Shown one piece after another: positions 1-25,300 of a stretch of 64,000 nucleotides of DNA. The first letter of the stretch is position 1. Each line of letters begins with the position of its first letter. The notes under the pieces are model-generated. The model searched no databases, had not been told where the DNA came from, and saw only the letters and a program-made list of their open reading frames with translations. The stretch covers positions 1 through 64,000 of the forward strand of contig JAFIGG010000003.1 of assembly GCA_020831485.1 (NCBI GenBank). The letters run 5' to 3'. Source of the DNA: Opitutales bacterium. GTDB taxonomy: Bacteria; Verrucomicrobiota; Verrucomicrobiia; Opitutales; Oceanipulchritudinaceae. The position numbers were made by a program, and so were the translations under genes.

Positions 1-1239
1 AACATTTCCTCCGATACGGGTCACATTAGCCTTAAAGCCGCCAACAACATCAGCCTGGCGGCCGACCGCAGCGTCAGCACGGCCACATCCGGGACGATCA
101 GCCTAACTGCCATCGCTGGCAGCCTGAGCATGCACGGGACCGCCTCAATCACGGCCAGCGAATCCTCGCTGCGTTTGAGCGCTCACGATAACATTACATT
201 GGGCAACCTGACTGCCGCCGATGTATCGGTGCTCTCCAGCGCGGGAGCCATCCTCAACGCTGTTGACTCTAGCAAGAACGTAACTGCGACCAACCTTCGC
301 CTGGAAGCGCACGGCACCATTGGCACCGCCGACCGGCACATTTCCACGGATGTGTCCGAAGCCTCCTATGCTTCCGAAACTTCCGGCATCTTCACCACCG
401 AAGACAACTCTATTACCATCGGCACGGTCACAGTCACCGTTACCGGCTTCAACGCCGATGCTACGACCACCACTGTAACCGACGCCGCACAGTCGGGTCT
501 CAACACCGGAGCCGACGGCAACATCGTACTCGTCTCCAGCGGCGGCACAATCACAGTGGATGAGGCAATCTCCGCCGGTGGCAGTGGCAACATCCTGCTG
601 GATGCCCGTGGTGCTGGCAGCGATCTGACCATCAACCACAACATTTCCTCCGATACGGGTCACATTAGCCTTAAAGCCGCCAACAACATCAGCCTGGCGG
701 CCGACCGCAGCGTCAGCACGGCCACATCCGGGACGATCAGCCTAACTGCCATCGCTGGCAGCCTGAGCATGCACGGGACCGCCTCAATCACGGCCAGCGA
801 ATCCTCGCTGCGTTTGAGCGCTCACGATAACATTACATTGGGCAACCTGACTGCCGCCGATGTATCGGTGCTCTCCAGCGCGGGAGCCATCCTCAACGCT
901 GTTGACTCTAGCAAGAACGTAACTGCGACCAACCTTCGCCTGGAAGCGCACGGCACCATTGGCACCGCCGACCGGCACATTTCCACGGATGTGTCCGAAG
1001 CCTCCTATGCTTCCGAAACTTCCGGCATCTTCACCACCGAAGACAACTCTATTACCATCGGCACGGTCACAGTCACCGTTACCGGCTTCAACGCCGATGC
1101 TACGACCACCACTGTAACCGACGCCGCACAGTCGGGTCTCAACACCGGAGCCGACGGCAACATCGTACTCGTCTCCAGCGGTGGCACAATCACGGTGGAT
1201 CAAGCAATCTCCGCCGGTGGCAGCGGCAACATCCTGCTG
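1..1239 (+). repeat. 639-bp tandem direct repeat (213 aa), two copies, continuing upstream
   Basis: The sequence from base 1 recurs from base 640. I see no difference up to about 542/1181, and then a few substitutions (GGC/GGT, ACA/ACG, GATGAG/GATCAA) before the copies diverge near 600/1239. The unit is a multiple of three and keeps the frame. Because base 1 already lies inside a unit, more copies probably lie upstream. Confidence 0.95.
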
Positions 1240-3423
1240 GATGCTTCGGATGAGTTAACTCTTCAGGGTTCAATCAGCAGTGGCAACGGCCACATTTCGC
1301 TGCTTGCAAGCAATGACATTGTTATGGGCGCATCCACTCTCCTCAGAACGGCCGGCTTCGGCACGGTTGATATCTATTCGAGTGACGGAGGTGTCCGCAT
1401 GGACGATACCGCCCGAATTACGACTCTGAGTGGTTCTCTCCGCATCCACGCAGCTGAAAGCATCTCTCTCGGTGGTCTGCAAAGCGGCAATGCTGTATCG
1501 CTGATCTCAACTACCGGAGGAATTTTCAGCGCCGGTGACACCCATCGCGAAATCCGCGCGCAAGTTCTGCGCATCGAAGCCGCCCAAGGGGTAGGAGTAG
1601 CCGCCACGCAACCGGTTCTGCGGACTCAAGTCTCCTCCATCAGTATTGTGGCAGGCGGCGGCATAAATATTGCGAACAGCAGCAATCTTACCGTCGGAGC
1701 CATTAGTGTCTCGACTCAACGCGTCGGCAATGATGGCGGCAGCACTGTCGTAAGTGATGCGACTCAAAATGGTTTGACCTCTGGTGCCACAGGAATCCAG
1801 CTGCAAGTTAACGGTAGCCTTGCCTTGACTCAGGCAATCAGCAGCCCGGGCCCGGTTACTTTGAATACCACTAGCCATATACGCCACAGTTTTGCCGGCC
1901 CCGTTATCAACAGCAGCGGTCGTGTCTCTTTGCAAACCTCAGGTGGCATAGGTCAAACTGGGCCGGGAGCCATTCATCTAAATGCCGATGAACTCAGCGT
2001 TACTAACACCGGTACTGGCTCGATTTATTTGCGCACCAACGAAAACCTGCGCCTGCTCGGCGCAAGCCTCGAAGGCGCTGGTAGCCTCACTATTCAGCAA
2101 ACCAGTGGTGACTTGACGATCGCCGATGCGGTTCAGGTCGACTCCGGGCATCTGCAAGTCAACACGAGCGGAAACCTCCGCATGGAGAATGCAGCTTTCA
2201 ACACTAGCGGTAACATCGATCTGCTCGCCACAAATGTGGATGCCCGCAGCTCGCCGCTCACCAGCGCGACCGGTGACATCTCGATCCGAGCCGCTTCCGA
2301 CATCAACCTCGATCGCGATTCCGCTCTCAGCGCCCTCAATGGACGGATCCACCTGCGTTCAGGTGCCGACATGAGCCTTGCCAAGGTCTCCACCAATGGC
2401 CTACTCAATATCCAGTCCGGCGGCAATATCACCACCAGTGCCGCTGGCGAAAGCGACCGCGGCCTCACCGCCGGCTCACTGCGCATCTTTGCCGCCGGCT
2501 CGGTCGGCACACCATCCGCTTCAATTCACGCCGATGTGGGCCGTATTGATGTCGAAGCAGGCCAGAATTTGCACTTCAGCCAGGGTGCCGGTATGGAACT
2601 GGGCCGCTATGGTCTGAAAGTCGATACCGCAGTAGGTGAAGAGTTCCGCATCATTGTTGGTGGCGGTGAACTCAGCAGTGCTGGCGGAGCCATCATTGAT
2701 CACGGCGAAGGAACTTTTGTGCTCGCAAGCACCCAAGAGATCATCATCACCACCGTCGTCCGCAGCGAAAACGGCAGCATCCGCATCGAAGCCGAGCGCA
2801 TCCTTTCCGGAGTGGCCGCTGAGCAAGGCCGCATCGAAGCCCTCAGCGGCCGGGTAACTCTTATCGCCCAAGACGGGATTGGTTCGATCAGCGGCGGAGC
2901 CGTCTACATCGATGCTGCCGAGCTCAGCGCGATAACCACCAACGGAACCATCAACATCGAGTCCCTAAGCGCAATCACTGTTGCAGGCGAAGGTGTCATT
3001 GCCGGCAACGGCAGCAACGACCTGCGCCTCATTGTGCAGCACGGCGACCTCAATGTGGCTGCTGATATTCGCCACAACGGTGCCGGGGCTCTCAATGTTC
3101 AGGCCCTCAACGGCGCAATCCTGATGCGCCAGGATGCGCGCATGCTCACCACCAGTGGCAGCATGAACCTGTTTGCCCGCAATGACATAAGACTTTCGCA
3201 GATTCAAAGCATTAGCGGCCAGGTTCGCCTTGAAAGCGTTACCGGCTCGATCCTGCGCCTCAGCAGCTTCACCGAGCCAAACCTGATTGCCACCTCGATA
3301 CCAGTGCTCAAAGCGCTCTCTCTTGTCGACCTCACGGTGCTTGCCGAACAGGTCCAGGTAAATGAAATCGACGTCTTCCGCCGCAGCGCACTCGTTATAA
3401 CTCTTTTCCTGGTATTTGGATGA
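1..3423 (+). CDS. C-terminal part of a large filamentous-haemagglutinin-like beta-helix repeat protein (5' end outside window)
   Basis: The frame is open from base 1 (it reads N-I-S-S-D-T-G-H) to the TGA at 3421-3423, so the ATG at 130 is internal and not the start. At least 1,140 residues are visible. They consist of short strand-turn motifs such as 'GNILLDA', 'GHISLKAANNISL' and 'SLRLSAHDNITLG', rich in Gly, Ser, Thr, Ala and Asn, as in the parallel beta-helices of filamentous-haemagglutinin/TPS-type exoproteins. Two almost identical 213-residue units are followed by a diverged third unit (about 1240-1850) and then by less regular repeats. The C-terminus is odd: a charged 'NEIDVFRR' is followed by the hydrophobic tail 'SALVITLFLVFG'. 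I see no autotransporter barrel and no TpsB partner. A surface or secreted structural role is inferred from fold type only, and no specific function can be assigned. The next gene starts inside its stop codon. Confidence 0.9.
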   Translation, partial: NISSDTGHISLKAANNISLAADRSVSTATSGTISLTAIAGSLSMHGTASITASESSLRLSAHDNITLGNLTAADVSVLSSAGAILNAVDSSKNVTATNLRLEAHGTIGTADRHISTDVSEASYASETSGIFTTEDNSITIGTVTVTVTGFNADATTTTVTDAAQSGLNTGADGNIVLVSSGGTITVDEAISAGGSGNILLDARGAGSDLTINHNISSDTGHISLKAANNISLAADRSVSTATSGTISLTAIAGSLSMHGTASITASESSLRLSAHDNITLGNLTAADVSVLSSAGAILNAVDSSKNVTATNLRLEAHGTIGTADRHISTDVSEASYASETSGIFTTEDNSITIGTVTVTVTGFNADATTTTVTDAAQSGLNTGADGNIVLVSSGGTITVDQAISAGGSGNILLDASDELTLQGSISSGNGHISLLASNDIVMGASTLLRTAGFGTVDIYSSDGGVRMDDTARITTLSGSLRIHAAESISLGGLQSGNAVSLISTTGGIFSAGDTHREIRAQVLRIEAAQGVGVAATQPVLRTQVSSISIVAGGGINIANSSNLTVGAISVSTQRVGNDGGSTVVSDATQNGLTSGATGIQLQVNGSLALTQAISSPGPVTLNTTSHIRHSFAGPVINSSGRVSLQTSGGIGQTGPGAIHLNADELSVTNTGTGSIYLRTNENLRLLGASLEGAGSLTIQQTSGDLTIADAVQVDSGHLQVNTSGNLRMENAAFNTSGNIDLLATNVDARSSPLTSATGDISIRAASDINLDRDSALSALNGRIHLRSGADMSLAKVSTNGLLNIQSGGNITTSAAGESDRGLTAGSLRIFAAGSVGTPSASIHADVGRIDVEAGQNLHFSQGAGMELGRYGLKVDTAVGEEFRIIVGGGELSSAGGAIIDHGEGTFVLASTQEIIITTVVRSENGSIRIEAERILSGVAAEQGRIEALSGRVTLIAQDGIGSISGGAVYIDAAELSAITTNGTINIESLSAITVAGEGVIAGNGSNDLRLIVQHGDLNVAADIRHNGAGALNVQALNGAILMRQDARMLTTSGSMNLFARNDIRLSQIQSISGQVRLESVTGSILRLSSFTEPNLIATSIPVLKALSLVDLTVLAEQVQVNEIDVFRRSALVITLFLVFG

Positions 3424-4577
3424 AACGCTACATGACAGCAAAACTCTGGATACTGCTACTGATCTTCAGTAGCGGGCAGATACTGATGGGCAATCTGCCA
3501 ACCCGTATCCTGGAAGCCGATTGGACCGCCGTTCACGTTCATGGAGATGCCGTTCTGGTCGCTGATAGCGATGGCAACCTGTTGCGCTCCACTGACGGAG
3601 GTATTGTCTTTGAATCCCGCTATCAAGGCACTCCTGAGGATGCCATACACTTTATCTACGGCAGCGGCTCAACCGCGATCGCCGTTGGCGCCGGCGGCTG
3701 GATCCTGCGGTCTGCAGACAACGGTCAATCCTGGTCGGAGGTCGCCGCTGATGCAATACTGGGACAGCTGTCCGCCGTGGTTGGCAATGGCAGTGGTCAC
3801 TGGGTCGCCGCCGGCCAGCACCAAGGCTCTGCCGCAACCCAAGTATCTACTGACGACGGCCTCACCTGGACCCTGCATTCTGTCAGCGGTGTGTATGAGC
3901 TAACCGGCATCACCTGGCATTCCGGCAGCAATCAATTTGTAGCCAGTGGTAGCGATGGATTTTTCAGCGGCAGCGTCCACGCCTCCCCTGAAGGTAGCAG
4001 CTGGAGCAGCATAAATGTTCCTTCAGAGACTTCCGTGCTCAAATTCATCGCCTCCGACGGTTCCAATGGATTGCTGGCTGGGGGGCGCGAAGGTATCTTG
4101 CTGCGTTCTGAAGGCTCTCCAATTAGTTTCTCTGCTGTTGAGGGCTTTCGCCCGAGCGAACATCTGCGCAGCGCCGTATCCACTGGGCAGGGCTCCTGGA
4201 TAATCGGTGGTGATCAGGCGATCCTTATCGAAATCCCGGCCGCCTCCGGGAACGCCCGTCTCCGCTCAAATCCCCTCCCAACTGCCGGTTCTATTGTTTC
4301 CATTGCAAACCGCGGAGGTGAAGAAATTTTACTTGCTGGATCATTCAGCGACTATCCATGGGGTCCACCGCAGCTACAAGCGGAGTTCAATGGCCAGCAA
4401 CTCATCCTTCGCCTGCACAACGCCCGCCTCGGCCGCTCCTACCAGTTGCAAAGTTCGACCAATCTGAGCCAGTGGAGCAACCTAAGCGGCACCACCCGCC
4501 AAGCCACCCAACGCACTCTCGAGTGGACCGTAGCCCCCGATGAAACCAATCGTTTCTTTCGGGTTCTGGTAGATTGA
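3420..4577 (+). CDS. Secreted beta-propeller (BNR/Ycf48-like) protein with Verrucomicrobia-type C-terminal domain
   Basis: This 385-aa protein begins with a signal-peptide-like segment (MKRYMTAK, then a hydrophobic stretch to about residue 22), so it should leave the cytoplasm. Residues of about 30-290 contain repeated blade motifs of the BNR/Ycf48 kind: 'LLRSTDGG', 'ILRSADNGQSWSEV', 'QVSTDDGLTWTLH', 'ASPEGSSWSSI' and 'ILLRSEGS'. The last 60 or so residues contain 'YQLQSSTNLSQWSNL' and end 'NRFFRVLVD', a tail typical of exported proteins in Verrucomicrobia. Its ATG overlaps the TGA of the preceding repeat-protein gene (ATGA), which suggests translational coupling. A binding or assembly role at the surface is possible. 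Sialidase activity is not supported, because no catalytic pattern beyond Asp-box-like turns is visible. Confidence 0.85.
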   Translation: MKRYMTAKLWILLLIFSSGQILMGNLPTRILEADWTAVHVHGDAVLVADSDGNLLRSTDGGIVFESRYQGTPEDAIHFIYGSGSTAIAVGAGGWILRSADNGQSWSEVAADAILGQLSAVVGNGSGHWVAAGQHQGSAATQVSTDDGLTWTLHSVSGVYELTGITWHSGSNQFVASGSDGFFSGSVHASPEGSSWSSINVPSETSVLKFIASDGSNGLLAGGREGILLRSEGSPISFSAVEGFRPSEHLRSAVSTGQGSWIIGGDQAILIEIPAASGNARLRSNPLPTAGSIVSIANRGGEEILLAGSFSDYPWGPPQLQAEFNGQQLILRLHNARLGRSYQLQSSTNLSQWSNLSGTTRQATQRTLEWTVAPDETNRFFRVLVD

Positions 4578-4914: not shown

Positions 4915-6444
4915 ATGAAACTCTCAAACTTGCTCAAAGCATTCGCTCTATCGTGCGGAATCACTTTGGTGTCTTCGCTGTTTGCGGCACCTGAACAAGA
5001 ACGGCCGGTTGTGCGCTACACACCGCAGCAATTGATTGCGATCGCACTCCGTCAGAACATGGACTTGGAATACCAACGGATTGAAGTGGACATCAAGGAT
5101 GACCAGATATCCGGCGCCTGGGGTGAGTTCGAACCTTCGTTTATGATCAACGCTGGCGTCAACCGCTCAAACAGGGCGCAGAACCAGCGGGAATTTCTCA
5201 GTACCGGACAGGTCGGGCGCATTTACGAAGAAGAAGTGCGTCGTCTGACGATGGGCATTGGGGGTCGCCTTCCATTTGGCACCACCTACGAGGCCACCAC
5301 CGGGGTTCAGCGCTTCGACAATACTTCCAATCGCACCGAGATGTCGATTTACAACCCGGAGTATCAGTCGACAACCGTCATCTCGGTTACCCAACCACTG
5401 CTGCGGAATTTTGGTCGGGACGCCAATATGGCCGCCTTGCGCGTGCTGCAGTCGGAGATGCGTTCAGCTAAGGCACAGACCCGCTCGGCGATCGAACAGG
5501 TCGTGGCGCAGGTACTTTCGGTGGTCTACGAATTGCGCTTTGCAGAGGAAAATATCAAGGTTAAGGAGCAGTCAATTGAGCTGGCTCAGAGTCTTTTGAG
5601 TGAGAACCGCCGTCGGGTTGAAGAGGGGCGCATGTCTCCGATCGATGTCACCCAGGCTGAAGTGCGTCTGGCTGAGGCACGGGAAGAGCTCATTTCCGCC
5701 CGCAATTTCTATGCGACCCGGCAGAGCACCCTGCAGGAGTTGCTTGGTAGGGATTACAATTTCGAAGCCCCCTTTATCCGAGTCGATGGCGTCGACCAGC
5801 TCTCGCTGGAGCAGGCCCTGGACCACGGAGAACTGGCGCGAACCATGATGACGATGAGCCCTATATATGAGTCGATGCAGGAAATGGTCGATGCTGAGGG
5901 TATTCGCGTCGCCTACATGGAAAACCAGCGATACCCGGAAGTTGATTTACAGATGTCCATTGGTTGGAATGGCCTGAGTGATTATTTTACGGGTTCCTAC
6001 AGGGATTATGACAACCGCTCGGAGGCCGATTGGGGAGTGGGGATATCCATTAACGTTCCGCTTGGTAACCGCACTGCCAGAGCACGTGTGAGTGAAGCGA
6101 AACGCCGTCAAACACAGGCGTTGCTGGACGTCAAGCGGACTGAAGTGCAGCTGTTGTCCGCATTGGATACCGCTATCCGCGATGTACGTTCCGGCATCGA
6201 ACGCCGCAAACTGATTCAGGAATCGGTTCGTCTGGCCGAAGCGGCGCTGGTATCCGAAGAGCGTCGCCTGGCGACAGGAATGACGACGAGTTACAACGTG
6301 CTCAATCAGCAGCGCGAGCTAACCCTCGCCCGTACCCGCGCGCTCGCAGCTGACGTCGATGTGCAGCAGGCCTGGGCGCAACTCCTCTTGATCCAGGGCA
6401 GTCTTGCGCCGCGTCTGGGATTTGCCGTAAATGTTTCGAATTAA
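4915..6444 (+). CDS. TolC-family outer-membrane channel protein
   Basis: This 509-aa protein is close to the usual TolC-family length. It has an N-terminal signal peptide (hydrophobic stretch, then 'SSLFAAPEQE' around residues 20-28). The mature part shows the family pattern: 'QQLIAIALRQNMDLEYQRIEV' near residue 40, the strand-rich 'VTQPLLRNFGRD' near 160, then a long alpha-helical coiled-coil with 'VEEGRMSPIDVTQAEVRLAEAREEL' around 238-262. A second half repeats this plan ('ISINVPLGNRTARARVSEAKRR' near 378, then 'ERRLATGMTTSYNVLNQQREL'). TolC proteins form trimeric channels through the outer membrane that accept substrate from periplasmic adaptors. It opens a five-gene run with gaps of 3-14 bases, so it is probably the exit pore for the machinery encoded downstream. 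Confidence 0.93.
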   Translation: MKLSNLLKAFALSCGITLVSSLFAAPEQERPVVRYTPQQLIAIALRQNMDLEYQRIEVDIKDDQISGAWGEFEPSFMINAGVNRSNRAQNQREFLSTGQVGRIYEEEVRRLTMGIGGRLPFGTTYEATTGVQRFDNTSNRTEMSIYNPEYQSTTVISVTQPLLRNFGRDANMAALRVLQSEMRSAKAQTRSAIEQVVAQVLSVVYELRFAEENIKVKEQSIELAQSLLSENRRRVEEGRMSPIDVTQAEVRLAEAREELISARNFYATRQSTLQELLGRDYNFEAPFIRVDGVDQLSLEQALDHGELARTMMTMSPIYESMQEMVDAEGIRVAYMENQRYPEVDLQMSIGWNGLSDYFTGSYRDYDNRSEADWGVGISINVPLGNRTARARVSEAKRRQTQALLDVKRTEVQLLSALDTAIRDVRSGIERRKLIQESVRLAEAALVSEERRLATGMTTSYNVLNQQRELTLARTRALAADVDVQQAWAQLLLIQGSLAPRLGFAVNVSN

Positions 6445-6453
6445 TGCCGGTCT

Positions 6454-7188
6454 ATGCAAAAACTCACTACTCTTTCCCTGCTTGTTGTAATGCTTTCGCC
6501 GCTGTCCTTATGGGCACAGCAGCGTGTCTTTGAAGGATTGGTCGAACCTTTCCGCGAGGTAACGCTCAGCAGTCCGGTTCAAAGTTTTATTGAAGAACAT
6601 TTTGTGCGCGAGGGTGACACCGTTCAGGCGGGCGACCTTTTGTGTCGCCTGTTTTTGCGGATCGAGCAGTTGGAAGTCGAGCGTTCGCGCGGCTTGATTG
6701 AAAAGCGGGAATTTGATTTCCGTGGCTCGCAGAACCTGTTCGCCGACCGTCTGATCAGTGAAGACGAGGCCTTGGCCGCCCGGATTGAGTTGGATCTCGC
6801 GCGCCTCCAGCTGGAAATTGCTGAAGAGAATGTCCGCCTGCGTGAAATTCGTTCTCCGATCGACGGAATTATCGTTGAGCGCATGGTCGAAGACGGTGAA
6901 ACCGTCACCGCCACAGAGCCCATTTTCGTCGTAGTGAACATCGAGCAGATTTACGTCCAGTTCTACGTCCGGGCCGAGGACCTTCGCCATATTCGAGTCG
7001 GTCAGGAAGCCAGTATCCGTTTTCCGGAATTGGACTTGGAGGGAGATATGCCGGGGAAAGTCGAGTTTATTGATCCGCGGGTGGATGCCGCCAGTGGTTT
7101 GCTTCGGGTTCGCGTCTTGATGGACAATCCGGAACAGCGGGTAAAAGCCGGCGTTCGTGCGGTCGTGACATTCTCATCCACAAATTGA
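6454..7188 (+). CDS. Periplasmic adaptor (HlyD/RND membrane-fusion protein family), short form
   Basis: This 244-aa protein has a signal peptide (MQKLTTLSLLVVMLSPLSLWAQ). It then shows the two halves of a lipoyl domain, 'VREGDTVQAGDLLCRL' (about residues 50-65) and 'RSPIDGIIVERMVEDGETV' (about 133-151), separated by a helical hairpin. A beta-barrel region with 'VNIEQIYVQFYVRAEDLRHIRVGQEA' follows. This is the plan of RND/HlyD-type adaptors, but the protein is shorter than many of them. It lies 9 bases after the TolC-like gene and 10 before the GAF-HlyD gene. It most likely links an inner-membrane component to the TolC-like channel. No RND pump gene is present, so its partner is probably one of the next two proteins. 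Confidence 0.9.
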   Translation: MQKLTTLSLLVVMLSPLSLWAQQRVFEGLVEPFREVTLSSPVQSFIEEHFVREGDTVQAGDLLCRLFLRIEQLEVERSRGLIEKREFDFRGSQNLFADRLISEDEALAARIELDLARLQLEIAEENVRLREIRSPIDGIIVERMVEDGETVTATEPIFVVVNIEQIYVQFYVRAEDLRHIRVGQEASIRFPELDLEGDMPGKVEFIDPRVDAASGLLRVRVLMDNPEQRVKAGVRAVVTFSSTN

Positions 7189-7198: not shown

Positions 7199-9031
7199 AT
7201 GAGTACGCACTCCTCCGATATGCCCTCCGAATCCACTGTCCATCTGGTGGATGAGTGCCGTTTTTTCAGCGGGGCTGCCCCTGAGTTCTGGCAGAAATTT
7301 GCCAAGGCCTGCTGTGCCTTATCCAGCGCCCGAAGTGTTCGTATGTTGGTTCAGTTGGGTGATGCCTGGCGTGTGCTTTCGGCTCATCCCGAAGGCAAGC
7401 AACCACCTCTGCCGATGACTGAGGATCGATTCAAGGAATTGCAAAATGCTGCCTTTGAAGATGGATACACTTACACGCAGCTCCCAGGCTTGAAGGGCGG
7501 TTTCCTTTTTCTGGCCGCGTTGCAGACCGAAGAGGGTGGCAATCCGGCGATTGCTGAGTTTCGTCTTGATGACGAGCCGGAAGGCGGTTGGCAGGCCTTG
7601 ATTGGCATTATCCCCTTGATTGTGGATACGCCGCGAATGTATCAGCGCAATCGGCAGATGAAGGCCGCTCAGGAGAAGCTGGATCATTACTCGAAGGCAC
7701 TTGATGTACTCGCGGTCGTGAATAATCAAGTTCGCTTCATTCCCGCAGCTATGGCTCTGGTGAACGAGGTCGCAGGTCGGCTGGGCGCTTCAAGAGCGAC
7801 GCTCGGCTGGTTGGCTGAGCCTTATATCAAGGTCGTTGCGATGAGCGGGACTGAGAAGTTTGAGCGCAAGGTTCAGGCTATTCAGAAATTGGAGACGGCG
7901 ATGGAAGAGTGCCGGGATCAGGACGAGGAACTCGTGGTCCCCGCTTTGCCCGAAAGTGATTCTGTCGTTCGCGACCACAGCCAGTATGTCAAGGACAGTG
8001 GCATTGCCGCGGTCCTGTCGGTTCCGCTGAGAGTGGATGGGGAGGTGGTTGCAGTGATCACTGTTGAGCGTGAGGAGGATGCCTTCGCTATGGAGGATGC
8101 TGCTGGCCTGCGCGTGATTGCGGATCAGACCGCACGTCGCCTGGATGAGTTGAAGCGCTCGGACCGCTGGTTTGGAGCCCGCTGGACTGCGTCTGCACGC
8201 AAGGTCTTTGAAAAGGCACTGGGGCCCACTCACACATGGCTGAAGGTCGGAGCGGTTACCGGAACGCTGTTTTTGGCTTTTGCATTGCTGTTTCCCTACA
8301 CCTATCGCGTGGAATCAACTTTTATCGTGCGTCCAGACAGCCTTGCTCAATTGCCTGTACCTTTTGATGGATACATTGCCGAGGCCCATGTGCGCCCGGG
8401 GGATCTGGTCGAGGAGGGGCAGTTGTTGGTGTTGATGGACCAGGGCGAGTTGTTAGTCAGCGAAGCCTCGGCTCTGGCCGATATCGGCCGCCACCGTGCG
8501 GATGCGGAGGGCGCTGAGGCGAATCGCCGCTTAGCCGATTTTCGGGTGGCCCGGGTTTTGGAAGCACAGGCCCAGGCCAGCCTTGAGTTGGCGCGTCACC
8601 GCCTGAACCGTTCAGAGATTCGCTCGCCATTTGAGGGCGTCGTGATCGAAGGGGATCTGCGTGAGCGTCTCGGGGCACCTGTCAGTCAGGGCGATGTGCT
8701 GCTGCAGGTATCGCGACTTGACGGACTTTACATGAACATCCAGTTGCCGGAGCGCGACATTGATTTGTTGGACGATTCCGGGATGGGGGAGGCCGCGTTT
8801 GCGAGCCGACCGGACCTGCGCTTTCCTTTTAAGATTGAGCGCATTGAGCCGGCGGCCGTTTCCGGTGCGGATGGCAGTCATTTTGTGATTCGCGCTGAAC
8901 TCACTGAAAACGCGGAATGGCTGCGGCCTGGGATGACTGGGATTGCAAAGTTGAACGGCGGCAAGCGGACTCTGGCTTGGCGCGCAACCCACCGCATTGT
9001 GGATTTCTTCCGCATGCGTTTCTGGCTTTGA
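7199..9031 (+). CDS. GAF-domain protein fused to an HlyD-type membrane-fusion domain
   Basis: This is a 610-aa protein. Residues 1-145 form an N-terminal region I do not recognise. Residues of about 165-317 look like a GAF domain ('SKALDVLAVVNNQVRF', '...AAVLSVPLRVDGEVVAVITVEREEDAF', '...ADQTARRLDEL'). A single hydrophobic segment follows at about 347-367 ('VGAVTGTLFLAFALLF'). The rest is HlyD-like: lipoyl halves 'AEAHVRPGDLVEEGQLLVLMD' and 'RSEIRSPFEGVVIEGDL' flank a helical hairpin, followed by a barrel region ('LYMNIQLPERDIDLL', 'LRPGMTGIAKL'). The predicted topology puts the GAF part in the cytoplasm and the adaptor part in the periplasm. HlyD-type adaptors normally have only a short cytoplasmic tail, so a cytoplasmic sensory-type domain is unusual and could gate or couple export. 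No ligand can be predicted. Confidence 0.88.
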   Translation: MSTHSSDMPSESTVHLVDECRFFSGAAPEFWQKFAKACCALSSARSVRMLVQLGDAWRVLSAHPEGKQPPLPMTEDRFKELQNAAFEDGYTYTQLPGLKGGFLFLAALQTEEGGNPAIAEFRLDDEPEGGWQALIGIIPLIVDTPRMYQRNRQMKAAQEKLDHYSKALDVLAVVNNQVRFIPAAMALVNEVAGRLGASRATLGWLAEPYIKVVAMSGTEKFERKVQAIQKLETAMEECRDQDEELVVPALPESDSVVRDHSQYVKDSGIAAVLSVPLRVDGEVVAVITVEREEDAFAMEDAAGLRVIADQTARRLDELKRSDRWFGARWTASARKVFEKALGPTHTWLKVGAVTGTLFLAFALLFPYTYRVESTFIVRPDSLAQLPVPFDGYIAEAHVRPGDLVEEGQLLVLMDQGELLVSEASALADIGRHRADAEGAEANRRLADFRVARVLEAQAQASLELARHRLNRSEIRSPFEGVVIEGDLRERLGAPVSQGDVLLQVSRLDGLYMNIQLPERDIDLLDDSGMGEAAFASRPDLRFPFKIERIEPAAVSGADGSHFVIRAELTENAEWLRPGMTGIAKLNGGKRTLAWRATHRIVDFFRMRFWL

Positions 9032-9045
9032 AATAGGGATGACGG

Positions 9046-11196
9046 ATGAATAACGAAAGACCCCTTTTCAGCGAATCCTGGCACCGGGTGGCCCAGCAGA
9101 AAATACGCCTGCGGCCATCGGTCAAAGTGCGCAAACAGTTTTTCCGCGGAGAGCAGTGGCACGTTGCACACGACGCTTATGGGGATCAGTTTTTCCGCTT
9201 TCGCCCGGAAGCCTGGGATTTCATCTCACGCCTGGATGGAACCCGTACGGTCGAGGAGATCTGGAAGGGCTGCCTTGAGCGCAACAAGGACCGCGCACCC
9301 GGTCAGGGCGAGGCGGTTCAGATGCTGGCCCAGCTTTACAATGGCAACTTGATCATCTCCGATGTGCCGGCGGATGTCGGGCAGTTGTTCGACCGTTACA
9401 AGAAGCGCAAATCCCGTGAATGGAAGTCGCGTATCTTTGGTATCTTCTTTCTGCGTATTCCACTCTGGGACCCCGATAATTTTCTCAACCGAACCATCAA
9501 CTGGGTTAAGCCTTTATTGACGGTTTGGGGTGCTTTGCTCTGGTTGATTGTTTTCGGAGCTGGCCTTTCGGTTGTGATTGCCAACTGGGAACAACTGTTT
9601 TCAGCCCGGCAGGGAATTCTGGATCCGGCGAACTTGCCCTTGCTGTATGTTGCGTTTGCATTCGCCAAGCTCATTCACGAATTTGGACACGGCTACGCGG
9701 TTAAGCGATTCAAGGGGGAGGTGCACCGAATGGGTATCACCATCCTCGTGTTTACCCCCATTCCCTTTGTCGATGCGACGGCCGCCTGGGCCTTTAGGGA
9801 GCGCTGGAAACGTGTCTGGGTGGGCTGTTCAGGGATGATTGTTGAGCTCTTTCTGGCCGCGATTGCGGCCTTTGTCTGGGCCGCTACCGGCCCGGGCCTG
9901 GTCAATTCGCTCGCCTACAACACCATGGTGGTCGCTTCGGTTTCCACCATACTGTTCAATATCAACCCTTTGCTCCGGTTCGACGGTTATTACATCTTGT
10001 CGGACCTGACCGATACGCCGAATTTGCAACCCCGCGGTTCGCGCCAGCTGCTGCACGGGCTTGAGAAATATATTTATGGCGGCCGTTTTTCACAGAGCCC
10101 TTCCTCCACCGCCGGTGAAGCAGTCTGGTTGGGATCCTTTGGCGTGCTGGCCTATTGCTACCGACTTTTTATAACGTTTACGATTATCATCTTCGTCGCG
10201 GACAAATACCTGGGGCTCGGTTTGCTGGCTGGCATCCTGACGGTGATCGGGATGTTCATTATACCCTTTGTGAAGGGTATAAAATACCTGTTTACAGAGC
10301 CACGGATCGAGCGGGTGAGGACCCGCGCGTTGAGTATTACCGCGGGCTTTATTGCGCTTGTTTTCTTTCTCCTGGGAGTTGTCCCTGCGCCTTCGCATGT
10401 GCGCGCTCCGGGCGTGCTGAAAGCAGAAGACTCGAGCTTCGTCACTTCCCGGGCCGGAGGCTTTGTCGAAGAAGTCATTCAGCCATCCGGTCGGGTTGAG
10501 TCCGGGGAGGCTTTGCTGCGCCTGGCAAGTCCCGACCTGGACCTCGAAATTCGTGCGCTGGAAGCCGAACTGGAGCACATTGAGGTGGTTGAACGACAGG
10601 CCATGCGGGTTGAGCCATCAGGACTCGCGGTGCTGCGGCAGCGGCGTCTGGTGACCGAGTTGCGTTTGGCGGAGCTGTATGAGCAGCGGGACAATCTGGT
10701 AGTTCGGGCAAGCCGGGACGGCGAATGGGTGGCTCCGGAATTGCGGGAGATGACCGGGCGCTGGATCTGGCGCGGCAGTGTGCTGGGCGAAATCGTCAGC
10801 GGTGACCATTGGGAGTTTCTGGCGGTCGTCTCTCAGGATTCGGCCGGCGCCCTGTTTGATCACGGGGTAGGAGATGCCAGTATCCGTTTCCCGGGAAGCC
10901 GTGGTCTGGAACTCAACCCGGATCGGTTGATGGTGATTCCGGGGCGTCAGGACCAGTTGCCGAGCCCCGCCCTCGGCTGGGCCGGGGGCGGGCCCATCGA
11001 AGTGGATCAAAGGGATGAATCCGGGATGCGCGCGGCAGAGCCTTTTTTCCTTGTGATGGCCCGGGTTCCCGAGTCGGAGCACAGACTTTGGCATGGCCGC
11101 ACTGGAGTGGTGCGGTTTCAACTTCCGTCCGAACCCTTGCTCAAGCAGTGGGGCCGAAGCTTCCGTCAGCTGCTCCAACGGCGATTCCAGATCTAG
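9046..11196 (+). CDS. M50 (site-2-protease-like) metalloprotease with PqqD-like N-terminus and lipoyl/HlyD-like C-terminus
   Basis: This is a 716-aa membrane protein. Residues of about 35-115 resemble a PqqD-like peptide-binding domain ('DQFFRFRPEAWDFISRLDGTRTVEEIW'). Several hydrophobic segments follow. Within them lies the zinc motif H211-E-F-G-H215 ('LIHEFGHGYAVKRF') and the later 'NPLLRFDGYYILSD' with D313, the usual third ligand of M50 proteases. From about residue 445 a periplasmic part begins: 'TSRAGGFVEEVIQPSGRVESGEALLRL' is a lipoyl half, then a short hairpin and 'LVVRASRDGEWVAPELREMTGRWIWRG'. The arrangement matches the 'peptide zinc metalloprotease / HlyD' family seen near peptide exporters. 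All three zinc ligands are present, so it may be an active intramembrane protease, or it may serve as an inner-membrane platform. It lies 14 bases after the GAF-HlyD gene and 3-12 bases before the SecA-like gene. Confidence 0.9.
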   Translation: MNNERPLFSESWHRVAQQKIRLRPSVKVRKQFFRGEQWHVAHDAYGDQFFRFRPEAWDFISRLDGTRTVEEIWKGCLERNKDRAPGQGEAVQMLAQLYNGNLIISDVPADVGQLFDRYKKRKSREWKSRIFGIFFLRIPLWDPDNFLNRTINWVKPLLTVWGALLWLIVFGAGLSVVIANWEQLFSARQGILDPANLPLLYVAFAFAKLIHEFGHGYAVKRFKGEVHRMGITILVFTPIPFVDATAAWAFRERWKRVWVGCSGMIVELFLAAIAAFVWAATGPGLVNSLAYNTMVVASVSTILFNINPLLRFDGYYILSDLTDTPNLQPRGSRQLLHGLEKYIYGGRFSQSPSSTAGEAVWLGSFGVLAYCYRLFITFTIIIFVADKYLGLGLLAGILTVIGMFIIPFVKGIKYLFTEPRIERVRTRALSITAGFIALVFFLLGVVPAPSHVRAPGVLKAEDSSFVTSRAGGFVEEVIQPSGRVESGEALLRLASPDLDLEIRALEAELEHIEVVERQAMRVEPSGLAVLRQRRLVTELRLAELYEQRDNLVVRASRDGEWVAPELREMTGRWIWRGSVLGEIVSGDHWEFLAVVSQDSAGALFDHGVGDASIRFPGSRGLELNPDRLMVIPGRQDQLPSPALGWAGGGPIEVDQRDESGMRAAEPFFLVMARVPESEHRLWHGRTGVVRFQLPSEPLLKQWGRSFRQLLQRRFQI

Positions 11197-11199: not shown

Positions 11200-11208
11200 A
11201 TGTGCAGC

Positions 11209-13209
11209 ATGAAACACGCCGCCAGTGAATTGCCGATGAGGGATGTGCGCCGCACAGAGGTGCCATCTCCACCCGAAGTTCCCAAGGGACTCGATGCGGT
11301 CGTGAATAAGTGTATCGGCTCTTACCGATCCAGAAAATGCCATTCGCGAGAGCTCTGGGAGGCCGCCGGTCGTTGCGAGGCGGCTTTTAGGGAGATCCGG
11401 GGGATCCCGGAGAAGGAGTTGAGGGCTAAGATCCGCCATCATCAGGCTCACATACGACGCTTGGGCGGACGCTGGAAAGAGGGTTTCGACGATGCCCTTC
11501 CGGTTTTGGTGGAAGCTGCGCGGCGCTCTTTTGGGCTGGAGGCCTACCGAACCCAGATGATGGGTGCCATGGCTTTGGCGCGCGGGACACTGGTCGAGAT
11601 GGCGACCGGGGAAGGAAAGACATTGACGATTGCACTGGCGGCTGCCGCCGCCGGTTGGTCGGGCAGGCCCTTGCACGTTGTTACCGCCAATGACTACCTG
11701 GCACGGCGTGACGCGGAGGAGCTGCAGGTATTTTACGAGGCCTGTGGATTGCGTGCGGCTGCGATTCAGGTGGATTTGAAACCGCACGAACGCCGGGAGG
11801 TGTATGAGGCGCCAATTGTCTATTGCACCGGTAAAGAATTGGTTGCGGATCTGTTGCGTGATCGCATTCTTCTGGGCAACTATGCGGAACCGACGCGGCG
11901 CAATGTGATGCGCCTGTCCGGCTATACGCCAACCCAGCAGCACACTGTCCTGCGTGGGATTTACACCGCTTTTGTCGATGAAGCGGACAATCAGTTGATT
12001 GATGAGGCCGTGACCCCCCTGATCATTAGTCGCAAGGATGAGAATTCGCTGATCGAAGAGGCTTCGGAGCGTTCTGAGGAGCTGGCGGCTTCCCTGCTGC
12101 CCGGCGAGCATTATGAATTGAACAACCGTTACCGCGAGGCCCGGCTTATTGAGGCGGGGAGGGCAAAGGTCGCTGAATGGTGCGAAGGCCAAGCCGGATT
12201 TCTGTCTGCCACGGACTGGATGTGTGACCTGGTAAATCAGGCCCTACAGGCCCGGCACTATTTTCTCAAGGATAAGCAATACGTCATCGTCGATGGCAAA
12301 ATTGTGATCGTTGATGAGTTCACCGGCCGCCCTATGCCGGGGCGTAGCTGGCGTCTGGGACTGCACCAGGCAGTCGAAGCCAAAGAGCAGTTGGAGGTTT
12401 CAAAGCCCTCGGAAACCCTCGCCCGTCTGAGTTTTCAGCGATTCTATCGCCTTTTTCGACACTTGTCAGGGATCACGGGCACGGCGCGTGAATCCCGCCA
12501 CGAGTTCTGGGGAGTCTACGCGCTGCCCTTCATCGAAGTGCCGCGTCACCGGCCGAATCAGCGTAAAGACGCTCCGCTGCGCTTTTTTGCCGACGAGCCT
12601 GCCAAGTGGCGCGCAATTGTTGAGGAGATCAGGGAGCTGCACGCCCTGGGACGCCCGGTGCTGGTTGGCACCCGCAGCGTCTCAGCGAGCGAGCACCTGG
12701 CCCGGCTTCTGGATCAGGAAAAGCTGTCCTGTTCGATCCTGAACGCGGTGAGGCATGAGCAGGAGGCCACCATTATTCGCCTCGCTGGTGCTGAAAGCTC
12801 AATCACAATCGCCACCAACATGGCCGGCCGGGGAACCGATATCCGCCTTGCGGGCAAAGTGGTAAAATTGGGCGGCCTCCACGTCATTCTCAGTGAGGGG
12901 CACGAAAGCGGTCGGGTTGACCGTCAGCTGATGGGCCGTGCCGGACGTCAGGGCGACCCGGGATCGACCAGCCGATACGTTTCCATTGAGGATGAATTGA
13001 TCCAACGCTTTTCCCTGCGCCCTGTGCGGGCATTGACCCATACCTGGCTCCGTTCCCGCTTGCCCGCGGCCCAGATCCTGGCCCGGATTTGTTTCCGCTG
13101 GGCCCAGTTTCGTGCGGAAGGGAAGAGTTTGCGTCAACGGGTATCTGTCATGCGACAGGATGCCGAAATGTCTAAGAAGCTCATGGTCAGCACGATCGAT
13201 AAAATATAA
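11209..13209 (+). CDS. SecA-like translocase ATPase, shortened
   Basis: The protein is 666 aa from ATG 11209, or 669 aa from the ATG at 11200. It carries the SecA motor signature: Walker A 'MATGEGKT' (about residues 131-138), 'VVTANDYLARRDAEEL', Walker B with the SecA-type extension 'VDEADNQLIDEAVTPLIIS' (SecA normally has VDEVDSILIDEARTPLIIS), 'VIVDEFTGRPMPGR', 'LSGITGTA', 'TNMAGRGTDIRLAG' and 'GRAGRQGDPGS'. At about 670 residues it is well below the roughly 800-900 of housekeeping SecA. The region after the motor is short and ends without the Cys/His zinc-binding tail. It closes the five-gene run and lies just before the giant gene. I infer a dedicated SecA paralogue that powers export of the neighbouring cargo. 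Housekeeping SecA is unlikely given the length, the company it keeps and the divergent Walker B surroundings. Confidence 0.93.
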   Translation: MKHAASELPMRDVRRTEVPSPPEVPKGLDAVVNKCIGSYRSRKCHSRELWEAAGRCEAAFREIRGIPEKELRAKIRHHQAHIRRLGGRWKEGFDDALPVLVEAARRSFGLEAYRTQMMGAMALARGTLVEMATGEGKTLTIALAAAAAGWSGRPLHVVTANDYLARRDAEELQVFYEACGLRAAAIQVDLKPHERREVYEAPIVYCTGKELVADLLRDRILLGNYAEPTRRNVMRLSGYTPTQQHTVLRGIYTAFVDEADNQLIDEAVTPLIISRKDENSLIEEASERSEELAASLLPGEHYELNNRYREARLIEAGRAKVAEWCEGQAGFLSATDWMCDLVNQALQARHYFLKDKQYVIVDGKIVIVDEFTGRPMPGRSWRLGLHQAVEAKEQLEVSKPSETLARLSFQRFYRLFRHLSGITGTARESRHEFWGVYALPFIEVPRHRPNQRKDAPLRFFADEPAKWRAIVEEIRELHALGRPVLVGTRSVSASEHLARLLDQEKLSCSILNAVRHEQEATIIRLAGAESSITIATNMAGRGTDIRLAGKVVKLGGLHVILSEGHESGRVDRQLMGRAGRQGDPGSTSRYVSIEDELIQRFSLRPVRALTHTWLRSRLPAAQILARICFRWAQFRAEGKSLRQRVSVMRQDAEMSKKLMVSTIDKI

Positions 13210-13342: not shown

Positions 13343-16300
13343 ATGTCTCTTCGCTCATCAACACGCACTCCTCGTTTCGTTGTCGAAACGTTGGAACAGC
13401 GCATCTTGCTTTCGGCAACGCCGATGGATGATGGTGGGTTGGACCTAGAAAAGAATGGTTTGAATGAGGTAGCCTTTTGGAATGTCGAGATGACTTCCGG
13501 CTCGGAGGATGGCGCCAACGAGGGCGCTGATTTTGAATTGTTCAGCCATGCAGGTGATCAAGCCGACGAGCCGATGTTCGCCGGAAATGGAACCCAGGAG
13601 GATTCAGGGCCTGCGGGTGTGGAGATTGGCGAAGGTGAGACCTTGCGGCACGCAGGCTTGCTTGAAGGCCCTTTTTCTAATGCCGGAACATTCATTCCCG
13701 GGAACAGTCCTGGAATAAGTGAACACCTCGAAGGCTTCAGTACAAGCGGGACTTTGGTATTCTACCTTGGTGGGACCGAAGCCGGCAATGACGATGCCAA
13801 CCACTCCCAGATCCAAGTGACTGGCGGCGCGGAATTGGGCGGTGTCATCGAGCTTCGGCTCTGGCAGGATTTCAGCCCTGCAGTAGGGGACAGCTTTGAT
13901 TTGATGATTTACGACTCGGCTTCGGGAGCATTCTCCGGAGCCGTTGGTCTATTAATGCTGGACGCTCCGGACCGGTATTTTGAACTTGAGCAGCAGGCCG
14001 ATCGTCTTGTCGCAACGGTCAAGGCCTTGCCCGGAACCGAACTCCTGAGCATTGCGCCGGACACTCAGGCGATGGCCGATGCCCTTGGTCAATTGCTCAA
14101 CGGTGACTATTTCAGCGGATTGTCGGACCACATTGTCATCGATGCCTCAATTGTTGTTGGTGAGCATCTTCACATCAGTGGTTCTGTGGGCATCTCAATT
14201 TCAGGGGACGACCTGACGATTTTGGGTGAGGGTGTAACAGTCGCCCTAAAGGCCCCTGGGGTAGAGGCCCGAGTCGAATCCGTTTCTTTTGCTTTATTGT
14301 TTGTTGACGGCAGCGTTGTTTTTGAAACCTCTGCAGCGAGTAATTTTCATCTGAGCGGTGGAGACTTTGCCAGCGTCTCGGTTACCGAAGCAGTTGTTCG
14401 CCTCAACCTGACCGGTGAATCCTGGACCGGCGAATCCGTAGGTGTGGGCGCGATGAGCTATTCTTTTGTCGCCATGCCAGCGGCTTCGGATCTGATTGAG
14501 GTTTCAGCCGTCGGCTTCCAGGCTCAGGTGGCTGATTTTGTTGAGCTGTCCGGTGATGTTGGTTTCAGCATAATCGACAACAGTTTAGTTGCTGTTGGAA
14601 ACGACCTTACCGTCCAGCTCGGCGCGGGTGCTTCTGAGCTAAGTGTTGCCGGCGCGGCTTTTGGGCTGATTCTCAATCAGGACCAGTTTGCCTTTGAGTT
14701 GAGTGGAGAGGACCTGGTTCTGGCCGTTGCCGGATTGGGTGTTGTTTCCGCTAGAGGTCTCAACGTGCGCTACAGCGACGAAGACTCCGTGATTGTTCCT
14801 GGCAGGGTCGTGTCTGCTGGTTCGGCCAGCTACACCTTTGTCGAGGGGATCGCCAGCGGAACAGTTGCTTTTGATGTCGAAGATTTTGAATTCAATTTAC
14901 TTGAGGACGTCCTGCGCGTCCAGGGAGACGGTTCCTTCCACTTGAATGCGGAGGGCGACCTCTCGCTGTCCTTCAATGGGAGCCTTAATGTCTCCAGTCT
15001 TGTGGAACTGGAGGGAGATTTCAATGCAACCGTTTCTGCGGACGGCAACTCGATGGTGCTGACAGCAAACTCCGTCAATGCGAGCCTTGAAGTGGGTGAT
15101 GTCGGCTTGTCGATCAATGACGCGAGCCTGGCTTTGAACCTTACGAATGAAGGAGAAGCGGTCGAATACGCGCTTTATGCCTACGGCAGTGCAACCCTCG
15201 ATGGAATTGACGGTGTCGACTTCTCTATTAATAGTGTAGAGGTTCTTGGCAAGAATATCGAGGACTCGTTCATCGATATGGAAGGGGAGGGCTCCGCCGC
15301 CGGGATGAAAAACTTTGGCGCGGGCGGCGAGGTTTTGGCCATTGTTCTGGATGCATCGCTCGCTATTGACAATTTTGCCTCCGTGTCCGGCGAATTTTCT
15401 GTCACTCAGGTTTCGAATGCTGAAGACGATTACCTGGCTCTGAGCGGAAGCTCGGTCACCGCGACCATGGGTTTAGGCTCAGTTCTTCTGAGTGTGTTTG
15501 ATGCTGAATTGGGTATTCGTCTCGAAGGCGATGGCGGTTACGCTATCGCAGGTGCCGGTTCGGTAATCCTGAGCGGTGTTCCAGGTCTGACGCTTTCCAG
15601 TGGTCAGATGGGCCTTCGCGTAAACACCACAGGTGTCAGCGAAGTCGATTTTGGTGGTGCTCTAGGGGTCGTTGATTTTGGAACGGATGACGAATTGATG
15701 CAGTTCCACGGCACTGATATGGAATTTTCCATTGATGATTTCGTATCGATCACGGCAGATATTAGCGCTGAACGAATCGTCACCGGTGAATCTGAATCCA
15801 TCCAGCTGACTGCCGCAAACGCCTCGGCCACACTGAGTGTCGACGGGGTGGGTTTTGCAATCATCGATGCCGCTCTGGATTTGCAGATTGAAAGCGATGG
15901 TACCGATACCCAGTTTGTTCTGGAGGCCGAAGGCAGCGCCGAATTGACCGGAGTTCCGGGCGTAACCGTTTCTGGCACCATGAATGTCCTTGCGGATACG
16001 ACGGGCAGCGAAAACGTTTACGTTTTCAGCGGATCGGATCTTGAATTGGATCTGGATGGCTTTGCCCAGTTCAGTGGTGATTTGGCCGTCTCTATTGATG
16101 GCGACTCGATAGTCATCAGTGGCAGCAGTGTTCAAGCTGGGCTGAGTGCGGGCGGAGCCTCCTTGTCAGTTTCTGACGGTAGCCTCGACCTGTCTATTAA
16201 GGACAATGACGGCACGGTTGAATACCTGCTTGACGCGACTGGCAGTGTTTCCCTTTCCGGCGTTCCTGGGATGAGCCTTTCCGGAACGGTAACCGTTCAT

Positions 16301-22300: not shown

Positions 22301-25300
22301 TCCATGGGTGTTGGCGATGTTGCCATTACAATCAGCGATGCATCCCTTGGTCTGATACTTTTCAGCGATGGAGAGGACGCGACTTATGCCCTGACGGCTG
22401 CTGGAACGGTCGCACTCACCGGCATTCCGAGCCTGACCTTGAGCGGGACGATGGCTGTGCAGGCGAACGTAACGGGTGAGCAGGAAGTGGACTTTGGTGG
22501 TGATCTTGGTGTTGTTGACTTTGGCACGGAGTTGGATCTGTTTAGTTTCCGCGGAGAGGGCCTTGAGCTGGGCATTGCGGACTTTGTGAGCATCAGCGGT
22601 AATTTTGGTGCGGAGCTTGTGGAAGTGGATGGTGTTGACGTGGTGCTGGTGACAGCGTCGGACGTGGAAGCGGTACTGAGTGCTGGAGCAGTGGAGCTGA
22701 AGGTCAGCGAAGCGGGCTTTGGCCTGATGCTGCTGAGCGAAGGTGGCAGTTCGAGCTACGCTTTGCACGCTGAGGGCACCCTGTCGCTGACAGGCGTACC
22801 CGGGATCGAACTGGGGGGCACGGTGGAGGTGTTTGCGAACACGACCGGTGAGCAGGAAGTGGACTTTGGCGCGGATTACTACCTGATAGATTTTGGCACG
22901 GATGAAGAGCTGTTTGCGATCATCGGCGAAGAGCTGAACCTGAGTGTGGACGGGTTTGTGAGCGTGAGTGGTTCGATGGCCTTTGCCGCTGTGGGCGAAA
23001 CGATTGTTGCCGCTGGCACGGAGATCGAAGCCAAGCTCAGCGTCAGTGAAAGTGTATACGTTGCCTTGACCGGCGCGAACTTCGGCCTGCTGATGGACTC
23101 CGAGCGCTTTGGTTTTGAAGTCAGCGGTGGCAGCCTGGATGTGCAGCTGGGAGCCTTTGCGGATGTGACAGCGGAGAGCGTGAGCGTTCGCTTTACCAAC
23201 GGCTCGACGCTGATTGCGGCGGGCAGCGAAGTGGGTGTGAACGACGTGACTTACACTTTCGAAGATCAGATCGAGGCTGACAGCCTTGGTTTTGAAGTGG
23301 TCGGCCTGTCGGTGAACCTGCTGGACGTGGTAAGCGTATCGGGCGACTTTGGCTTTGGCCTTGAAGGCGAAGACCTCATGGCTGTGGGCCGTGAGGTGGA
23401 AGTGAGCCTTGGCACTGAAGACTTTGGAGTGGGCGTGACCGAGGGCAGCTTTGGCTTGCTTTATCGTGATGGAGCCCTGGCCTTTGAAGCCCGCGGCGGC
23501 TTGTATTTGAATGGTGGCGGTTTTGCCAGCGCGGTAGCCAGCGAGGTTTTTGTTGGCTACAACGAAGCCGGAGTGGACCTGAGCGAAGAGAGCCTTGAAG
23601 TGGGCGAGTTGAGCTACAGCTTCCGGAACCTACCAGCGGTGAGCGACTACCTCGCGGTGAGCGTGCGCGGCCTTGAGGCAAGCCTTGCCGGAGCGCTGTA
23701 TGTGCGCGGCGACTTTGGTTTCAGTGTCAACGGCGAGACTGACGAAGTAGTGGCGGTTGCGCAGAACGTGGAAGCGGGGCTGTCAGCCGGAGGCTTTGAA
23801 GCGGGGATAGTCAACGGAAGCCTTGGGCTGCTGATTGATGGCAACGGAGCCTTGGTGCTGGAAGCGCGCGGAACGCCATCGTTGAATCTTGGCGGAGCGA
23901 TTGATCTCGGAGCGGACACGGTATCGCTGCGGGTGAACGAGACCGGAACGGCCTACACCGGCGAGACCCTCGAAGCGGGTCAGCTGAGCTATACTTTTGA
24001 AAACCTTGTGTCTTCGGACAGCCTGCTGGAGCTGGCGCTGGACAACGCGTATCTGAAGCTTGCGGGCTTTGTGGAAGTCAGTGGCAACTTTGCCCTGCGC
24101 GCGGACAGCGACACGGTGACTTTGGGCGACGGCAGCACTGTGTCGGTGGAAGTGCTGACGGTGGGTGCCAGTGATGTGAGCGCCTTTGCCGGATACAACG
24201 GCGGCAGCGCGCAGGCCCTTGGCCTTGAGCTCAGCGAAGTGAACTTTGCCCTTGGACTGTTCAGTGAAGTGGGCGGTGAGCGCAGCTGGACAACGCTGCA
24301 GGCCGAAGTGGGCGAGGTGAGTGTGGTTGGAGTTCCCGGCCTGACCCTGACGGTGACGAGTTTTGGTCTGGAAGTGAACCTTGCCGCGGCGGATGACAGC
24401 CTGATTGATTACGAAGCTGCAGGTTACACGGTTGCCACCGGAGTGACTGCAAGCATTGACTTTGGCATGGCCGCCAGTGACGGCGAACTGATCCAGGCCG
24501 CCGGCAGCGTGGAGATCGAGCTGCTGAACTTCTTCCGTGTGAGCGGAGACTTTGCCTTTGTGAGCCGCAGCGACACGGTGCGCCTGTCCGATGGCAGCAG
24601 CGTGGAAGTGGACCTGATCACGATTGGCGCGAACCAGATCGACGCCTTTGTTGGGCTGTCGGACATTGGTTTTGAACTGTCGGAGGCGGACTTTGCGCTG
24701 GTGCTGCTGACCGACAGCAACAACTCCGCGCGGCAGTGGATGGCACTGAAGAGCGAAGTGGGTTCGGTAGGCTTTGTGGGCGTGGACGGTTTGACCGTGG
24801 AAGCCGATACGCTGACGGTTGAGATCAACCAGAACATCGGCAGCGAAGGCGCGCCGATTGAACAGGACGATGTGCTGACGGCGACGGTCCTGGAGTTGAA
24901 TGTCGAGCTGGGAACAGGCGAATTGATTTTTGAACTGGGTGGCGAGGAAGCGCGCGTGAGTGTTCGTGCCAGCGACACCAATACGACATTGCGCTCAGCG
25001 CTGCGCAGTGCCCTCGAAGGGCTCAGCGGCGTAGGCGAAGGCAACGTGACGGTGAGCGGAACCCGCGCAGGCGGCTTCACGCTGACCTTTGGCGGCGATC
25101 TGCTGGGCGAAGACTTGAGCGGCCTGACGGTGCGCGCGGAAGGCCCTGAAGCCAGCGGCAGCGTGGTGGAACGGGTTGCCGGAGAGCCTGAGCTGATTGA
25201 AGTGGAAGTGGAGATCGAAACGGTCAACACGGTGCTGCGGCTGGAAACCAACATTGTATCGGGCGCACTGGACCTGAAGCTGCGCGGAGCGACCACGCAC

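Follow-up and report, generated by a model that had tools for sequence, protein, structure and literature searches.

The window is the whole 64,000-nucleotide stretch of DNA analysed here, positions 1 to 64,000 of contig JAFIGG010000003.1 from an Opitutales bacterium, and all of the features with coordinates in the cassette and its cargo are on the + strand. It contains a tight row of genes for a TolC channel, an adaptor, a GAF-adaptor, an M50-adaptor and a SecA-like ATPase, upstream of a giant LEPR-XLL ORF. The first gene (4915-6444) encodes a TolC-family outer-membrane channel (PF02321, E=7e-42). The second (6454-7188) encodes a periplasmic adaptor of the RND_mfp family, which scores above the cut-off of TIGR01730 and has an N-terminal hydrophobic, signal-like segment by hydropathy. 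The third (7199-9031) combines a GAF domain (PF01590), one membrane span by hydropathy and an adaptor domain (HlyD_D23). The GAF domain lies ahead of this single predicted span, and a sensor of this kind is unusual for an exporter adaptor. The fourth gene (9046-11196), the subject of this work, encodes a 716-aa fusion of an RRE-like domain, an M50 (site-2 protease) domain and an HlyD-type adaptor. The ORF has an ATG start and a TAG stop, is 14 bp past the end of the GAF-adaptor gene, and is present as a single copy in the source genome. The gene for the 669-aa SecA-like ATPase begins 3 bp on (11200-13209), and the giant cargo gene (21,533 aa) runs from 13343 to the end of the window at 64000 and on to contig position 77944. 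Both neighbours are as described in the first-pass annotation. A profile search of the cassette found no ABC transporter among its genes, and the SecA-like ATPase stands in that place. The cassette has no anti-sigma or regulator gene, and by hydropathy the M50-adaptor is its only multi-span inner-membrane protein. No paper describing this gene set was found in the open-access literature.

An AlphaFold2 model of the 716-aa protein (mean pLDDT 78, pTM 0.48) was compared with solved structures and gave three separate matches along the chain, in the order RRE, RseP, MacA. Residues 18-111 (9097-9378), predicted to be cytosolic, match RRE/PqqD-like domains that were solved together with leader peptides (VIA-align Z 9.4 to the TbiB1-leader complexes 5v1v/5v1u). 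Pfam PqqD has no above-cut-off match in the 716-aa protein itself; it is below threshold in 7/18 close family members and above the cut-off in a Methylosinus relative. The S2P core is at residues 193-323 (9622-10014) and aligns over 127 residues with the RseP orthologue 7w6y (Z 9.9). Pfam M50 (PF02163) gives E=4e-6 and 26.7 bits, where the cut-off is 27.2, and the score is 30.9 bits with its neighbours in frame. The MacA/MexA/HlyD-type periplasmic adaptor domain at residues 448-703 (10387-11154) is weak in Pfam (HlyD, E=0.03) and clear by fold, with MacA being the best structural match of the whole model (Z 16.3). The modelled barrel-sandwich and hairpin fold, beside a TolC gene, is that of an HlyD/MacA-type adaptor. 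The PqqD-like front and the HlyD end had both been proposed from the letters alone, and the model is consistent with both. Hydropathy suggests about seven membrane spans, with the N-terminus inside and the adaptor outside. A phmmer search of the 716-aa protein against PDB sequences gave no match. An N-terminal W-H/Y-R motif occurs in 34/40 rows of the SecA clade and 0/27 others; it may mark a contact specific to the motor or the leader, but shared ancestry alone could explain it.

The zinc site is intact. The HEFGH motif (H211-E212-x-x-H215, 9676-9690) is followed by NINPLLRFDG (9958-9987), in which the third ligand D313 is encoded at 9982-9984, and all four residues H211, E212, H215 and D313 occur at exactly the numbering first reported. 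The spacing N305-x-x-P308-x-x-x-x-D313-G is the site-2 protease third-ligand motif. H211, E212, H215, N305, D313 and G314 are without variation in 67/67 relatives from Verrucomicrobiota and Pseudomonadota, while the adaptor end is far more variable; therefore, the conservation of the site is far beyond chance. Since the catalytic glutamate E212 varies no more than the zinc ligands do, the alignment argues for catalysis. The HExxH, the third-ligand D in NxxPxxxxDG and the S2P core fold in membrane helices are all present, so by motif and modelled fold the 716-aa protein is a site-2 protease with predicted proteolytic activity. The catalytic loop 307-316 has pLDDT <50, and with a pTM of 0.48 for the whole model the geometry of the zinc site is modelled unreliably.

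Among curated NCBIfam families the top match of the 716-aa protein is NF041824, the daptide leader protease (E=2e-45, residues 21-405). The score of 155.7 bits is about half the curated cut-off of 300, which the protein does not reach, and the protein is in no daptide cluster, as its neighbours are exporter parts and giant cargo. MpaP of the daptide cluster joins an RRE to a site-2 protease and is described as an intramembrane peptidase that takes off the leader in an RRE-dependent manner; dependence on leader and RRE was shown by mutation for MpaB, another RRE protein of the same cluster (PMC10036551). The 716-aa protein shares with MpaP the N-terminal RRE fused to an M50 site-2 protease and a conserved substrate leader. 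The substrates of MpaP, however, are short peptides in RiPP clusters, and MpaP lacks an adaptor domain and has neither TolC nor a SecA-like protein as a partner. The best reading of this comparison is that the 716-aa protein would work like MpaP without belonging to the NF041824 family. It also resembles RseP and other M50 site-2 proteases in its HExxH, NxxPxxxxDG and core fold, but differs from RseP in having an RRE-like front and an adaptor end. An ordinary RseP-type gene was found separately in the source genome, so the M50 protein of the cassette appears to be specialised.

The cargo gene begins with an LEPR-XLL domain (NF012209, 29.3 bits against a cut-off of 17). Its leader FVVETLEQRILLSA is at residues 12-25 (13376-13417), as defined by NF012209 and the conservation profile. 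The source genome has four LEPR-XLL ORFs of 21,533, 7,280, 7,471 and 7,938 codons, with the leaders FVVETLEQRILLSATP, FRVEGLEARILLSAAP, FSVELLEARILLSATP and FTVEVLEARILLSASV, and one exporter cassette apparently serves all four. Across 18 leaders, E, L, E, R, L, S and A are invariant positions, the consensus is F-x-hydrophobic-E-x-L-E-x-R-I-L-L-S-A, and beyond LLSA the conservation declines within three residues, past an SA-T-P stretch. The LExR core loosely resembles the daptide leader motif ELExMEAP (PMC10036551).

A genome scan for relatives of the M50-adaptor gave 18 loci with 45-69% identity, all in Verrucomicrobiota. The SecA-like gene adjoins the M50 gene in 18/18 of these loci, and the TolC and adaptor genes are present in nearly all whose contig reaches far enough; in some the TolC and free adaptor genes are on the opposite strand. 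Co-occurrence with the leaders was analysed in 241 Verrucomicrobiota genomes of at least 90% completeness, 54 of which have the M50-adaptor family. The LEPR-XLL leader, strictly defined, is found in 14/15 genomes with the close clade and in 2/226 others (Fisher p=1e-19, which ignores shared ancestry). Within the SecA clade, no LEPR-XLL leader was detected in genome G086. A second leader class, LExRxLFDAA, was searched with a profile from five sequences at E<=1e-3 and occurs in 22 genomes. Of these genomes, 21/22 carry divergent branches of the family, most of them SecA-less, and the close clade is in none (the p-values again ignore shared ancestry), while 18/39 genomes with divergent family members have no strict LFDAA match. 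Outside Verrucomicrobiota, alphaproteobacterial plasmids with a SecA-like gene have giants that start HFEALEPRLLLSAD, IFDTLEPRVLLNAD and ALETLEPRYLLSAD, and giants beside SecA-less clusters on Citrobacter and Variovorax plasmids carry FALESRQLFDGAA and ALEARYMFDAAA. By these sequence comparisons, the link between exporter and leader does hold across phyla.

The SecA-like protein keeps its ATPase motifs but is without the SecA wing/scaffold domain. This domain (PF07516) is absent in 5/5 SecA-like proteins and present in the housekeeping SecA of the genome (E=3e-52). In the model, a single long helix ends the SecA-like protein where the wing/scaffold domain would begin. The source genome (96.8% complete) has one SecY and no second or accessory SecY. 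On the M50 protein tree, rows with an adjoining SecA-like gene require three changes of state. Loss of the motor in G086 and G218 was considered and rejected, because both genomes have unlinked SecA-like genes, the copy in G218 being beside an LEPR-XLL giant. The tested genomes of other branches have the housekeeping SecA only and no SecA-like protein. Since the SecA-like genes are confined to one clade, the motor is clade-specific, and the leader, adaptor and protease are shared. It was also considered whether the zinc site is kept only alongside the SecA-like motor or LEPR-XLL, and this was rejected as the site is intact in all relatives. Its presence in both the SecA clade and the SecA-less sister clade indicates that it serves the common exporter or leader and not the motor.

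We propose that the 716-aa protein probably combines an exporter adaptor with an intramembrane leader peptidase guided by the RRE, and is used in TolC-dependent export of giant proteins. The predicted leader-cutting role is well supported, because an RRE-like domain and an intact S2P site are in one protein, the conserved leader co-occurs with the family, and a relative, MpaP, has been described as removing leaders. The cassette probably exports giant surface proteins of up to 21,533 residues. The cytosolic RRE-like domain would bind the N-terminal leader of the cargo, and the S2P zinc site, predicted to be near the cytosolic face, would cut it, perhaps directly behind the conserved LLSA. Pushing the cargo would fall to the truncated SecA-like ATPase, and the connection between cargo and TolC-type channel would be made by the C-terminal adaptor domain together with the GAF-adaptor and the free adaptor.

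The first-pass annotation had offered two roles, cutting of a leader or a membrane channel in the place of SecY. The former is probable, by the reasoning given above; no positive test supports the latter. If the 716-aa protein were mainly an inner-membrane conduit, its roughly seven spans would form a channel fed by the SecA-like ATPase and the zinc site would be secondary. This agrees with its being the sole multi-span membrane protein of the cassette, with the one SecY of the genome and the lack of an accessory SecY, and with the motor lacking the wing/scaffold domain, which holds the two-helix finger used with SecY. The SecA-like genes also go with one clade, where unlinked copies fill both apparent gaps. 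But relatives without any SecA-like protein retain the architecture and the zinc site, so partnership with the motor cannot be the general role, and a conduit leaves the constancy of the catalytic residues unexplained. We know of no site-2 protease that conducts unfolded protein, which we also count against this explanation, and we consider it improbable.

The M50 part may instead act on a target other than the leader, clearing jammed cargo or cutting a regulator of the exporter in RseP-like signalling. Regulated cleavage is common among site-2 proteases, which counts in favor of this explanation, as do the GAF sensor domain on the neighbouring adaptor and the ordinary RseP encoded by a separate gene. 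The cassette, however, has no anti-sigma or regulator gene, the protease carries a leader-binding fold, and the association tracks the cargo leader across phyla. We consider action on another target unlikely. We consider it very unlikely that the zinc site has only a structural role or is a relic, with the 716-aa protein being no more than an adaptor that carries a leader-docking domain. In favor of this, the adaptor fold is the best structural match, but the catalytic E212, which zinc binding does not require, is the same in 67/67 relatives, and the adaptor end of these proteins drifts.

The cassette resembles type I and tripartite exporters (HlyD, MacA, TolC) in its TolC channel, its adaptors and the RTX repeat near the C-terminus of the cargo. 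It differs in having no ABC transporter, an N-terminal leader and a SecA-like ATPase instead; without an ABC transporter in the cassette it falls outside the definition of a type I system. Bacteriocin ABC exporters with a peptidase domain carry a leader-cutting C39 cysteine protease on the ABC transporter. The cassette is similar in that a predicted leader protease is built into the exporter, but this is a zinc site-2 protease and not C39. Accessory Sec (SecA2/SecY2) likewise devotes a second SecA-like protein to large surface proteins. The genome of the cassette lacks a second SecY, unlike accessory Sec, and the motor lacks the wing/scaffold domain; with no SecY2 and a truncated SecA, the cassette is not an accessory Sec system. 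Two possible precedents were rejected. The RSP of IncHI plasmids is another protein altogether, of 155 kDa, and depends on the type IV system for its export (PMC6764697, PMC11268884), and the 6,177-aa protein of ant-gut Rhizobiales has an ordinary type I system and a C-terminal signal (PMC5156944).

A broader and more tentative proposal, to which we give rather less than an even chance, is that these genes represent a separate Gram-negative secretion route. In this route, leader-tagged giants would be driven by a SecA-derived motor that lacks the SecY-engaging scaffold; they would cross the inner membrane through the RRE/site-2-protease/adaptor protein and enter a TolC channel. No ABC transporter would take part, and perhaps not SecYEG either, and LFDAA-tagged giants would be served by a sister form that has no motor. 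For LEPR-XLL proteins, no paper on export of 5,000-20,000-residue proteins without an ABC type I transporter was found in the open-access literature. The locus offers a concrete, testable machine with a predicted leader, cut site and catalytic residue, and the clades with and without the SecA-like motor provide a natural comparison. RRE-guided membrane proteolysis would then cover the largest bacterial proteins as well as small peptides.

Several other features of these loci were observed. SecA-less adaptors with the M50-adaptor, often with TolC, are beside giants at loci L070, L076, L108, L036-L038 and L040. Some giants beside SecA-less loci bear the LFDAA leader, and no ATPase gene was seen within those clusters. 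Two alphaproteobacterial plasmids have a DUF3467 gene between the giant and the exporter genes (L034, 12732-13052; L039, 11784-12089).

In the source genome, the four LEPR-XLL giant ORFs (contigs C62, C77 and C29) amount to 44,222 codons, or about 3.4% of the genome. The C-terminal 1000 residues of the cassette's giant (contig positions 74942-77941) include leucine-rich, LamG and RTX calcium-binding repeats. Window positions 22401-28100 recur in the giant gene 7044 bases further on with 99.3% identity, which points either to an internal duplication that is very recent or to the assembly. The ORF at 3420-4577, which overlaps the end of the preceding one, encodes a BNR/YCF48-like propeller protein that starts with a signal-like segment. 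Window positions 1-3423 encode a long repeat protein that is cut by the contig start; since its 213-residue repeats are near-identical, it may be a fifth giant with its leader beyond the contig start.
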